Below, piece after piece: positions 3,052 to 31,981 of a DNA stretch of 32,758 nucleotides (within the stretch, counting starts at the first letter, position 1; the number at the start of each line of letters is the position of its first letter). The stretch covers positions 1-32,758 of the forward strand of contig JARXAG010000137.1 in the NCBI GenBank assembly GCA_029866055.1. Direction: 5' to 3'. Under the pieces are notes generated by a model that saw nothing but the letters and a program-made list of their open reading frames with translations, was not told the origin of the DNA and made no database searches. Origin of the DNA: Burkholderiaceae bacterium. GTDB lineage: Bacteria > Pseudomonadota > Gammaproteobacteria > Burkholderiales > Burkholderiaceae_B. A program made the position numbers and the translations under genes.

Positions 3052-4004
3052 TTACGTGGTTTCTGAACCATCACCAGAAGCCTCGATATGTTTGAGCACC
3101 CGGTCAAAATCACTCTGAAAAAGCCGATCCTGCACGATGCGGTATTTTTCGAATTCGCTATCGGCGTGTGTTCTGGCCATTTCAGTGCTTACAGTGCCGG
3201 CATCTTGCAGGACCTCGCGATCAGTGAACTCAAGAAATACATCCAGTCGCTTGGCCCAGTCTTCCATGGTCATAGGGATTTTGCGCTGTGCCCGTTCTTC
3301 GGCGAGGTCGAGGTAGGCGTTGACAATGCGACCCAAGGACTCTAGTTCTTCTCGGCTTAGGTAATTTTTTGCCACAACCACGTCGGTTCTCAGAATCTTA
3401 CCTTCAGGGGCATTCTCCCAACTGCTCAACCCCATCTTTGGCTGCGTGGCATCGGCGCGGCGAATGATCAATTCAGCTGCCGTGTGGCCGTGGATAGCGA
3501 AATGTAACTTATTTTGTACCTTGGCGAAGAAGACTTTGGTGGTTGGCGCATCGCGGTTGTAGTCCACCGCCATGGAGTAGATGTCGGTGATTTTTTGGTA
3601 GAACTTACGCTCAGAAATCCGTATTTCGCGAATTCCCGCAACACACCCGTCGCCCACTGCCGAAACTGTGTAGCCCGTACTGAATTGACCCGGTAGCCGA
3701 CCGAGATGATGGCGTCTAAGTTATAAAAATCGATATTACGCGCCACTTCCCGGTGACCCTCGGTTTGAACTGTCCGGAATTTCCGGAGAGTTGCCGCCCG
3801 CTCCAATTCGTCAGATTCGTAGATGTTTTTCAGATGCTCGCTGACCGTACGTACATCAACGGCAAACAATTCCGCCAACAGCTTCTGCGTCAGCCAGACG
3901 GTTTCCTGCTCGTAGCGCGCCTCGATACTCTGCTCACCTGCTTGGCCAGTGAAAATCAGAAACTCGGCAGTGCTGTTGCGGATGAGTTTGGTGCTCGTGC
4001 TCAT
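3052..4004 (-). pseudogene. RhuM-family virulence protein, frameshifted with apparent internal deletion
   Basis: Two overlapping ORFs in different frames. 3468-4004 gives the N-terminal RhuM part (YEQETVWLTQKLLAELFAVDVRTVSEHLKNIYESDEL...RQWATGVLREF). 3052-3657 gives the C-terminal part (IREIRISERKFYQKITDIYSMAVDY...NKLHFAIHGHTAAELI...IPMTMEDWAKRLD). The break is near 3625-3645. Confidence 0.85.
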
Positions 4005-4173: not shown

Positions 4174-4537
4174 TGGTGGAGCCGGGGGGAATTGAACCCC
4201 CGTCCGCGAGCCCTCTGCAGGCAGTTCTACATGCGTAGTCGTTTCATTTTGAATTTAACCTTGGACTTTGCCAAACGACAGGCCGGACCTTGGCGATTCA
4301 CTTGGATTTAAGAAGTTGACGAGTGACCCGCCAACCGCCGATTCTTTGTAAATGACGCTGCTGTAGATTTCTCTACCTGACCCAAAGACAAATCAGTGCA
4401 GCGGCTCTACCGCTTAAGCGGCCAGAGCGAAACGCTCGTCGTTGGCGTTTATAGTGTTTCCAGTGGATTTACGAGCGAACTGGGGCTCGGCATGCCCTGC
4501 ACTGTTTCGCGACCCACGTCGAATCCGGATCGGCCCC
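4174..4537 (-). ncRNA. ssrA: tmRNA (transfer-messenger RNA)
   Basis: Minus strand 5' end GGGGCCGATCCGGATTCGACG and 3' end GGGGGTTCAATTCCCCCCGGCTCCACCA; the acceptor stem pairs GGGGCCG/CGGCTCC. Tag ORF at 4414-4446 (minus): GCC AAC GAC GAG CGT TTC GCT CTG GCC GCT TAA = ANDERFALAA*. Confidence 0.97.
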
Positions 4538-28914: not shown

Positions 28915-30548
28915 ACTTGAGGCAACATCGCATCTAAGCTCGTATTCACTTCAATCAGTATCGGCGCCTTCGCCTTGAAGGCCGCCTGTATCACGCCATC
29001 GATGTCGTCTTTGTGGGTGATGCGAGCAGATGCCATGCCAAAACTGCGTGCCATGTCATGGAAGTCAGGATTAAACAGCGAAGTGCCGCTCACGCGCCCT
29101 GGATAACCGCGCTCTTGGTGTAAGCGAATCGAGCCGTAGCTCGCGTTGTTTGAAACGATAAAGATAATCGGCAGCTTGCGCTCAACGGCCAAAATCATTT
29201 CGTTACCCGTCATTAAAAAGCCGCCATCCCCCACGATACAAACTGTTGTGCGAGAGGGTTCGCGCAGTGCACAAGCGACTGCTGCCGGTGTGCCATAGCC
29301 CATCGCGCCTGCCAGCGGCGCCATCAAGCGTTGACCTGTTTTGAAGGTGAAGTGACGATAGACAGGGGCGGCAAAGGTGCCAGCGTCTAAGCAGATAGTG
29401 GTATCAAGCGACGAGTGAGCCTCGAGTGCGCGCACGACTTCGGTAAAGTTCACACCCTGCTTGGCTTGACGCGATGGCCAGGCAGCCCAAGACTGAGAGT
29501 GCTCGCGCAGTGTACCTAGCCAACTCACCCGAGCGGCGCTCACAGTGGGGGCAGGGTCTTGCGTCAAGGCTTTTACCAAGCCAACTGGGTCGCAGACCAA
29601 GGGGTAGTCGGCCACAGTATCCCAGCTGACCACACGCGAATCGGGGTAGCAGTGCAGTAGCGTTTGTGGAGCCTGACCATAGGCCGGAAATTGATAGTTT
29701 TGTGTGGTGATGTCGCCCAAACGGGTGCCTAAGGCAAGGATGAAATCACTGGTTTGTAAGGTTGCCATCTGTGCAGCTGGGTTGGATAAGCCCAAGTCGC
29801 CCACAAAGAGCGCGTCATCGTTTGCAAAAATATCGTGACGTCTGAATGACACCATGGTGGGTAACTGCCAGTGGTGGACAAAGGCCGCTAACGCTTCACG
29901 TCCGCCTGGGCAATCGAAGCAGCCACCTGCGATCACGACTGGGCGTTGTGCGGCCTTGAGTTGCTCAACGATTTTTGCCATTGTGTCGGGCGCTGGTAAG
30001 CCAAAGACGTGTGGGTGTTGTTTGAACGTTGGCACAGGCACCGTTTGCTGCTGAATATCTTCAGGCAGCACCAACACGACTGGGCCGGGTACCCCCGAGG
30101 TTGCCATCCGAATGGCTTTGAAAGCAGCCTGAGCGATTTGTTCGGGGCCTGTGCACTCGAACACCCATTTTGCGATCGAGCCAAACATTTTTTGATAATC
30201 AATTTCTTGAAACGCTTCACGACGCAGATCGCGTGCAGCGATTTGACCAATCACAAGAATCATTGGCACAGCGTCTTGCTGCGCGGTGTGCACTGCAATC
30301 GCGGCGTTCGAGGCACCTGGGCCACGACTCACTAAGGCCAAGCCAGGGCGACGCGTCAGGCGACCGTCTGCGACCGCCATGTAGCCCGCCCCGCCTTCAT
30401 GGCGACAGGTCACAACATCGATGGCCGGAAAATCGACCAAGGCATCGAGCAGGCCAAGATAGCTTTCGCCAGGCACAAGAAAAAGTCGATCCATCCCGTA
30501 GTCAGAGAACACTTTAAACAAGGCGTGGCTTGAGGTGAAGTTTGTCAT
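28911..30548 (-). CDS. Thiamine pyrophosphate-dependent enzyme, acetolactate synthase large subunit-like
   Basis: 545 aa with LFLVPGESYLGLLDAL, CRHEGGAGYMAVADGRLTRRPG, PLAGAMGYGTPAAVACAL, CIVGDGGFLMTGNEMILAVERKLPIIFIVSNNASYG. Confidence 0.9.
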   Translation of the reverse strand: MTNFTSSHALFKVFSDYGMDRLFLVPGESYLGLLDALVDFPAIDVVTCRHEGGAGYMAVADGRLTRRPGLALVSRGPGASNAAIAVHTAQQDAVPMILVIGQIAARDLRREAFQEIDYQKMFGSIAKWVFECTGPEQIAQAAFKAIRMATSGVPGPVVLVLPEDIQQQTVPVPTFKQHPHVFGLPAPDTMAKIVEQLKAAQRPVVIAGGCFDCPGGREALAAFVHHWQLPTMVSFRRHDIFANDDALFVGDLGLSNPAAQMATLQTSDFILALGTRLGDITTQNYQFPAYGQAPQTLLHCYPDSRVVSWDTVADYPLVCDPVGLVKALTQDPAPTVSAARVSWLGTLREHSQSWAAWPSRQAKQGVNFTEVVRALEAHSSLDTTICLDAGTFAAPVYRHFTFKTGQRLMAPLAGAMGYGTPAAVACALREPSRTTVCIVGDGGFLMTGNEMILAVERKLPIIFIVSNNASYGSIRLHQERGYPGRVSGTSLFNPDFHDMARSFGMASARITHKDDIDGVIQAAFKAKAPILIEVNTSLDAMLPQV

Positions 30549-30672
30549 GGTGCGAGTCTGGCAAAAAAGTTTTTGAGAAGATCGAAAATTAGCACAGCGC
30601 GGCCCTTTTCACCTAAGGCGCAGCCTGAGTTGGCTTTTTTGTGTTTTGTTGTAAAAAACATTCATTTTAAAT

Positions 30673-30710
30673 AACTGTGTTTGCAAACAGTACTGTATGC
30701 GTGTACAGTA
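30673..30710 (+). promoter_or_regulatory. Two tandem LexA/SOS-box-like operators
   Basis: aaCTGTgtttgcaaACAGta (30673-30692) and taCTGTatgcgtgtACAGta (30691-30710). Both fit CTGT-N8-ACAG exactly and their centres are 18 bp apart. Confidence 0.75.
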
Positions 30711-30835
30711 CTGTTTATGGTCACTGACCAAACAGTTTTGCCGGTTCTAGGTCCCCGGCAACCATCCTGGGTCGCTACGGCGGTCGGGGGTGGTTACTTA
30801 AACGTAGTGCATTTCCAGTCTAAAGGAGCCACACC

Positions 30836-31093
30836 ATGCGTCAATCTTCTGCACAGCAAGCCCCACGCGGCCAATTTGCTTCATCTTCTACACAGCAAAC
30901 CCCACGCGGCCAATTTGCCTCATCTTCTTCACAGCAAGCCCCACGTGCCCCGTTTGCCCGATCTTTCGCAACGGCAGCCGCGCGCAATGATTCACCAAGC
31001 GTAAAAGGGATGTTGTCTGACATCCTCTTGCTATCTTTTTGGGTTGCCATGATCCCAGCTGTCCTCTTGATCGGTAACGCAGCCGGTTATTAA
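30836..31093 (+). CDS. 85-aa hypothetical single-TM protein with three 13-aa N-terminal repeats, candidate SOS-regulated gene
   Basis: AAAGGAG ribosome-binding site 8 nt before the ATG; (SS[A/T/S]QQ[A/T]PR[G/A][Q/P]FA[S/R]) x3; C-terminal TM ILLLSFWVAMIPAVLLIGNAAGY. Confidence 0.75.
   Translation: MRQSSAQQAPRGQFASSSTQQTPRGQFASSSSQQAPRAPFARSFATAAARNDSPSVKGMLSDILLLSFWVAMIPAVLLIGNAAGY
30845..30961 (+). repeat. Three tandem 39-bp imperfect repeats
   Basis: Units at 30845-30883, 30884-30922 and 30923-30961 (tcttct[g/a]cacagcaa[g/a]ccccacgcggccaatttgc[t/c]tca, with unit 3 more diverged). Exact codon-length unit. Confidence 0.93.
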
Positions 31094-31108
31094 GGCTTTA
31101 GAAGGGGC

Positions 31109-31981
31109 TTAGCTGCTTGCCAGCAACACCACGCCTACGGCGATACCACCGCAGCCTACCAAGCGCCCCCAGCCGACAGGCTCACGTAGCAAGTAAAGTC
31201 CGGCAAGTGTCACCAACAACATTGACATTTCACGCGCGGGTGCCACTAAGCTAACTGGGGCGCCATCGCGTAACGCGTACAGCACCAAAATATATCCCAT
31301 TGGGGATAACACCCCGATTGTCCACGCCAACGGCCAATATCCTTTCATCGCTGCCCAGGCCTGCCGGGGCTGCCTTGCTGTGTGTGGCAACAGTAGCAAG
31401 GTGCGGGTCGCGCAGGTGGCCCAATCGTACACAACGGGGGCAATCAAAAGAGTTTTGACGCCATAGGCATCCACCAAGGTATAGGCGGCGATCAACGCGC
31501 CAATCAAGGCTCCCCAACGGACTCCTACCATCGCTTCTGGTTGCAGCAGACGACGAAGCTGGCCTTGTGTCGCAATCAGCAACACTCCCGCCACCACGCA
31601 CAGCATCCCGCTGATGCCACGTATCGTTGCAGGCTCGTCTAGCAGCAACAGAGCCCCTACAGTCGCAAGCAGCGGCCCTGTGCCGCGCGCGATCGGATAC
31701 ACGACTGATAAGTCGGCCAACTGGTAACCACGCTGCAGGCACAGGCTGTAGACTAGGTGCACGGTACCCGACAGCGCGATACAGCCAACGATTGGCCAAC
31801 TCCACTCGTTTTGCTCAAAGACCAACACCCAGAGCACCCAGGGGGCGTACAAAATGGTGCAGCACAGGCCGTAGGCAAATACAAAGGTCGGTCCAACGTG
31901 TGCCGCGCGTTTGGCAAGCAGGTTCCACGAGGCATGCGCAACCGCCGCCGCAATGACAAAGAGTAGGGCGGTAGAACTCAT
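31109..31981 (-). CDS. EamA/DMT-family transporter
   Basis: 290 aa with about ten hydrophobic segments and EamA-like internal duplication (HASWNLLAKRA; DLSVVYPIARGTGPLLATVGALLLLDEP; LVAPAREMSMLLVTLAGLYLLREPVGWGRLVGCGGIAVGVVLL). Confidence 0.88.
   Translation of the reverse strand: MSSTALLFVIAAAVAHASWNLLAKRAAHVGPTFVFAYGLCCTILYAPWVLWVLVFEQNEWSWPIVGCIALSGTVHLVYSLCLQRGYQLADLSVVYPIARGTGPLLATVGALLLLDEPATIRGISGMLCVVAGVLLIATQGQLRRLLQPEAMVGVRWGALIGALIAAYTLVDAYGVKTLLIAPVVYDWATCATRTLLLLPHTARQPRQAWAAMKGYWPLAWTIGVLSPMGYILVLYALRDGAPVSLVAPAREMSMLLVTLAGLYLLREPVGWGRLVGCGGIAVGVVLLASS

Follow-up and report, generated by a model that had tools for sequence, protein, structure and literature searches.

A LexA-controlled small membrane protein of the Alcaligenaceae, a candidate division inhibitor, and its leader RNA related to the start of a radical-SAM gene

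The window analysed here is a stretch of 32,758 nucleotides (nt) from a Burkholderiaceae bacterium (contig JARXAG010000137.1). At positions 30673-31093 it carries two tandem LexA boxes, a structured leader and an open reading frame (ORF) for an 85-residue protein with a single transmembrane (TM) helix. On balance, the locus as a whole is best explained as a DNA-damage gene under LexA repression that encodes a division-arresting small inner-membrane protein of a new Alcaligenaceae family. The small protein is almost certainly real and SOS-regulated, as judged from sequence conservation, and very probably represents a new effector of the DNA-damage response; the case for its being a division inhibitor is evenly balanced. 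The boxes and the ORF of an initial annotation made from the sequence alone both stand; the structured leader, its origin in a radical S-adenosylmethionine (radical-SAM) gene and the position of a third box had been missed. The control region contains the following features.

30673-30692, no strand: LexA box 1, 20-mer AACTGTGTTTGCAAACAGTA (exact core, matrix score, conservation in the genus)
30691-30710, no strand: LexA box 2, 20-mer TACTGTATGCGTGTACAGTA (exact core; spans the promoter spacer and the -10 element)
30709-30728, no strand: degenerate third box position TACTGTTTATGGTCACTGAC (scores about -0.3; same sequence in relatives L003 and L004)
30681-30709, plus strand: putative sigma-70 promoter, TTGCAA-17-TACAGT (read from the sequence)

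The exact CTGT-N8-ACAG cores lie at 30675-30690 and 30693-30708 with their centres 18 bp apart, as initially described, and the two 20-mers overlap by 2 bp. The interpretation of this motif as an SOS-box core also holds. The organism's own lexA boxes (CTGTctttatatACAG and CTGTatataaaaACAG) and recA box (TACTGTTTATATGTACAGTA) share the core, which is therefore the LexA box of this organism; the genome encodes LexA, with matching boxes at the lexA and recA promoters. A matrix trained solely on ortholog promoters from other genera gave 20.9 bits for box 1 and 17.4 bits for box 2, making them the top two sites of the window; the same matrix gives 17.7 and 17.4 bits for the boxes of the own lexA and 29.2 bits for that of recA, and in 100 Markov-simulated windows no site attained 17.4 bits. 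The consensus recovered by this matrix is TACTGTATATATATACAGTA, the outer bases of which are present in box 2. The perfect 12-bp inverted repeat reported at the second motif is real and results from two abutting palindromes and the start of the third box, which is degenerate in the window and intact in relatives. A further exact core, at 31378-31393 inside an EamA transporter gene, scores 11.2 bits and is taken as chance.

The TTGCAA-17-TACAGT promoter falls within the two boxes, the overlap that is looked for in an SOS regulon, and transcription would start near 30716. The same layout is present ahead of the orthologs in other genera, and that of recA is similar (TTGCGA ... TACAGT). Read in this way, the layout points to a promoter that is tightly repressed and strongly inducible, and we infer LexA binding and damage induction at the window boxes. 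No intrinsic terminator was found after the ORF in the region 30540-31200.

Conservation of the boxes and of the ORF in relatives had been set beforehand as the test of the proposal, which it passes. Relatives of the ORF are present in 32/32 genomes of the genus (the Zwartia/Sheuella group of the family Alcaligenaceae, whose named members include Zwartia hollandica, Zwartia panacis and Sheuella amnicola). With the out-of-genus matrix, both boxes are found upstream in register at 33/33 genus loci with a spacing of exactly 18 bp, while 510 control stretches gave a 95th percentile of 0.24 bits and a maximum of 11.2. At the third box position, another 18 bp along, L018, L025, L026, L031 and L033 score 15-20 bits, and the box is also intact in L029. 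Conversely, a matrix trained on the genus identifies an upstream box at all 29 sampled direct-type loci of other genera, those with the gene on its own, where the boxes are of the textbook AT-rich kind; 2.5% of 400 control stretches score at least 12, the share expected should all ten stretches from locus L123, which is very short, overlap with its test region. In a third arrangement (operon type), typical of the larger family genomes, the small-protein gene follows a radical-SAM gene whose product belongs to the PA0069 family (NF033668; 465 bits against a cut-off of 360), and in 10/10 sampled loci a LexA box immediately precedes the radical-SAM gene. SOS control is therefore kept across gene contexts. 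Two other AT-rich LexA-like boxes in the own genome may mark extra SOS genes: CTGTATATAGTGACAG ahead of a 134-residue ORF (L142:1989, G000:C138:2488) and CTGTATAAATATACAG, which has no gene assigned to it (L141:185, G000:C85:185).

The coding part of the locus comprises four features.

30823-30828, plus strand: ribosome-binding site AAGGAG (sequence; AGGAG kept in nearly all genus orthologs)
30836-31093, plus strand: small single-TM protein, 85 residues, new family (translation, conservation, coding selection)
30836-30952, plus strand: three N-terminal repeats of 13 codons, limits approximate (translation)
31022-31078, plus strand: TM helix, residues 63-81, followed by the C-terminal tail AAGY (hydropathy, AlphaFold)

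The ORF lies about 125 nt downstream of the boxes, in agreement with the initial description, as are the repeated N-terminus, now resolved into three copies of a 13-residue unit, and the single C-terminal TM helix. Its ribosome-binding site ends 7 nt ahead of the ATG. The length of 85 residues needs qualifying: it is the repeat-expanded form of a 52-59-residue protein. Relatives with one or two repeat copies have 59 and 72 residues, and 52-59 is the usual length (overall range 44-162). Purifying selection acts on the protein (dN/dS of about 0.25), with differences most frequent at third codon positions (2262/1474/4077 by position). The C-terminal TM part is conserved, with a D, a W, a P and two G residues invariant in a wide alignment, and an N-terminal KWPFPP motif is found in most members outside the genus. 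The helix has a hydropathy of 2.2. AlphaFold predicts one helix at residues 56-82 (predicted local distance difference test, pLDDT, in blocks of about 84-92; mean pLDDT 68) with no confident fold ahead of it. The net positive charge before the helix and the uncharged four-residue tail suggest a topology with the N-terminus inside. As the initial annotation had found, no family could be assigned: nothing in Pfam, NCBIfam or PHROGs exceeded the cut-off, and the weak matches to PF15755 (E 0.06), PF05818 TraT (E 0.1) and phrog_16035 (E 0.014) were judged to be chance.

A profile search detected the small protein in 202/269 Alcaligenaceae genomes and 35/43 genera, as a rule in one copy per genome. 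Matches in an order-wide search of 399 sampled genomes (at most 14 candidates scored per genome) were confined to Alcaligenaceae members, and one member used as a query gave no match among plasmids and phages. The protein is present in 200 of the 253 family genomes with LexA and in two of the 16 without, these two being 65% and 82% complete; this co-occurrence is partly driven by shared ancestry, for example in eight genomes of 0.7-0.8 Mb. SulA is reported in three of the 269 family genomes (one over the cut-off) and the small protein in none of the three, a mutual absence with a chance of about 0.015 from those counts. LexA is present in genera g23 and g32 with neither SulA nor the small protein matched, and another damage checkpoint may exist there. 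Among the close relatives, the records of the metagenome-assembled genomes L070, L071, L079, L080, L087 and L088 are titled Bordetella parapertussis or Candidatus Methylopumilus, titles that look wrong for this freshwater genus.

Between the promoter and the ORF lie the features that connect the locus with the operon-type radical-SAM gene.

30717-30719, plus strand: putative relic ATG of a lost radical-SAM gene (placed, with respect to box and -10, where operon-type radical-SAM genes have their ATG)
30735-30805, plus strand: two-hairpin leader RNA element, 71 nt (homologous to about codons 8-31 of PA0069-family radical-SAM genes)
30740-30759, plus strand: hairpin I, GCCGG-TTCTAGGTCC-CCGGC (C-G to U-A change in L020)
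30761-30794, plus strand: hairpin II, ACCAUCC...GGGUGGU (six pairs changed on both sides in the genus alignment)

Compensatory changes affect 7/16 pairs of the genus leaders, in which 96.7% of the cells pair, and the signal is lost on sliding the partner or shuffling. A covariance model (R1) built from genus leaders alone scores 85 bits in the window and 33-44 bits at the radical-SAM gene starts of 10/10 operon-type loci, and matches at the same radical-SAM position in about 80 family genomes. The likeness is also visible directly: the window reads GCCGGTTCTAGGTCCCCGGC where the radical-SAM gene has GCCGGTTCTGGGTCCCCGGC, and relative L007 still reads FAGSRSPATTLGRLRGRGWLLK against AGSGSPAAAPAALRGRGAVTN. 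When genus leaders and radical-SAM starts are aligned jointly the pairing is 99%, with one pair being A-U in 11 sequences and G-C in eight. The radical-SAM gene is absent from 32/32 genus genomes (E 1e-15). Given the leader homology, the position of the ATG and this absence across the genus, the window locus is read as an operon that probably lost its first gene save the 5' end; the present reading frame of the relic ATG no longer matches the radical-SAM frame.

In the surviving radical-SAM gene, the region of about codons 8-31 has a synonymous diversity of 0.02, the gene-wide median being 0.34 (40 sequences, mostly from one genus, several genera included), and the first 30 codons hardly vary synonymously (L156-L165, L174-L203). 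With diversity near zero, this stretch seems to be selected as RNA or DNA too. At the same loci the LexA-controlled PA0069-family mRNA looks leaderless, its ATG lying about at the expected transcription start. We tentatively propose, rating it a little below even, that the leader acts in cis as a functional RNA and has survived the loss of its gene. In one branch of the Alcaligenaceae it would overlap the initial codons of an SOS radical-SAM mRNA that looks leaderless; in the branch of the window it would persist untranslated and control the SOS membrane effector. It is rare for one sequence to be coding in one lineage and to form an untranslated structured leader in another while base pairing is preserved in both, as here. 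The leader is not essential, since it occurs in part of the genus and the Zwartia subclade, mostly with short untranslated regions, has lost it. Searches of the window, the locus and the operon-type loci against Rfam produced no relevant match. An intergenic repeat element was rejected because the leader is single-copy in its own genome, where region 30670-30835 matched only itself and stretches of 14-19 nt.

In the mechanism that we favour, LexA dimers would sit side by side on the two overlapping boxes (three in some relatives) in the undamaged cell, blocking the -35 to -10 region and keeping the gene tightly off. Upon damage, RecA would trigger LexA cleavage and a transcript would be made from near 30716, consisting of the two-hairpin leader inherited from the former first gene, followed by the ORF. 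The protein would keep its basic N-terminus inside and anchor itself in the membrane by its single C-terminal helix. There, the nearly invariant D, W, P and G residues would most likely touch a divisome protein of the FtsW or FtsN type. This contact would delay septation, filling the job that SulA has in gamma-proteobacteria. Overlapping LexA boxes guard colicin producers against untimely expression (PMC2994835); by the same logic, the small protein is presumably harmful if made out of turn. Division arrest is favoured on several grounds: almost no family genome has SulA, and the small protein is missing in the three SulA genomes; the conservation and specificity of the TM residues are what a helix with a protein partner should show; the gene is single-copy as a rule; and no antisense antitoxin was found.

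Small membrane effectors under SOS control are an established class. SidA, DidA, ChiZ, SosA and YneA are small membrane division inhibitors under SOS or damage-checkpoint control, and other bacteria have damage-induced inhibitors with FtsW or FtsN as target (PMC13396833, PMC4211646). A close parallel is with SidA and DidA of Caulobacter, both small single-TM proteins that are induced by DNA damage and act on FtsW/FtsN, SidA under SOS control (PMC4211646, PMC13396833); however, they belong to a different bacterial class, DidA is SOS-independent and sequence similarity is not established, the new family (44-162 residues) having a long basic N-terminal part and its helix at the very C-terminus. 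YneA, ChiZ, SosA and DivS of Gram-positives are likewise small membrane division inhibitors induced by SOS or damage, although YneA and ChiZ carry LysM domains. To our knowledge, none of these four has the C-terminal tail anchor and D/W/P/G pattern of the new family. SulA would share the checkpoint role in the SOS regulon but is a soluble FtsZ inhibitor, and no Pfam match to its domain (PF03846) was found in the small protein.

Several observations weigh against this interpretation. The small protein shares the single-TM architecture of the SidA/DidA/YneA/SosA-type inhibitors, but searches of Pfam, NCBIfam and PHROGs revealed no homology to any known division inhibitor. The overlapping boxes are a hallmark of lethal colicin genes (PMC2994835) and fit a toxin equally well. 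The anticorrelation with SulA involves three genomes only, and the small-protein family is not the sole possible solution, as LexA-bearing genera such as g23 and g32 have neither protein. Box 2 has a GC-rich centre and is weaker than the consensus. 

Taken by itself, the bare CTGT-N8-ACAG core is weak evidence in this genome, barely above chance (28 sites against 22 for a reversed control, counting the exact pattern only; three observed in the window against 0.47 expected). The box pair is not, since the only other pair of sites at most 100 bp apart in the genome lies upstream of lexA.

Second, behind division arrest, ranks an SOS-induced membrane toxin of the TisB/DinQ kind, an unlikely alternative in which the TM protein would depolarize the inner membrane and cause dormancy while the leader restrains translation as in tisB mRNA. 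The single hydrophobic helix, the very tight tandem boxes and the structured leader in part of the genus are all consistent with it, and there are precedents in the inhibitory 5' structure of tisB (PMC8145889) and in dinQ, a LexA-controlled single-TM toxin (PMC3567139). TisB-IstR and DinQ-AgrB of Escherichia coli are type I systems with LexA-controlled small TM peptides and structured or processed 5' leaders. Their peptides, however, have 27-29 residues, against 52-59 with a long basic N-terminal part here, and such systems have an antisense RNA; no second copy of the leader or antisense match to it longer than 15-19 nt was found in the own genome, and an IstR-like trans antitoxin was sought there and not found. 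A cis-antisense RNA may arise from a weak promoter-like site on the minus strand (30844-30817), by eye not clearly conserved. Nor is the leader a required brake: the Zwartia subclade lacks it, and in the radical-SAM type it is coding sequence. The gene is also single-copy, with no plasmid or phage match. Colicin promoters likewise have two overlapping LexA boxes and very tight repression (PMC2994835), but the window locus is chromosomal and conserved through the family, with no colicin, immunity or lysis gene seen adjacent in the window.

It is improbable that the small protein is an SOS repair helper of the PA0069-family radical-SAM protein, for example a membrane anchor for a repair enzyme, with no division role. 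The two genes adjoin in the same SOS operon, and are presumably co-transcribed, in operon-type genomes; however, the small protein is kept throughout a genus from which the radical-SAM gene is absent, and in many genera it stands alone behind its own boxes. Less probable still is an operator of another regulator that only resembles LexA boxes, for example a protein of the MocR/GntR type that would bind ACAGTACTGT repeats: ACAGTACTGT is repeated and the box centres are less AT-rich than usual, but this idea was rejected on the boxes outside the genus, which are textbook AT-rich, and the own recA and lexA share the core while the operon type places a box ahead of a different gene. A chance motif with a spurious ORF is a negligible prospect that, although the bare core barely exceeds chance genome-wide, is already refuted by the conservation of boxes, spacing, promoter and ribosome-binding site and by coding selection on the ORF.

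How division is halted after damage is unclear in most beta-proteobacteria, because SulA is nearly absent from the Alcaligenaceae, a family that includes Bordetella and Achromobacter. The small-protein family, present in 202 of the 269 sampled genomes, is a direct candidate for this role. No description of the family, the tandem array or the fossil leader was found in a limited literature search, mostly of journals open without subscription.

Elsewhere in the window, two overlapping minus-strand ORFs in different frames (3052-4004) look like one frameshifted gene, which we take to be RhuM-like. It adjoins a transfer-messenger RNA gene (4174-4537, minus strand), a common integration site, and is possibly part of a decayed mobile element.
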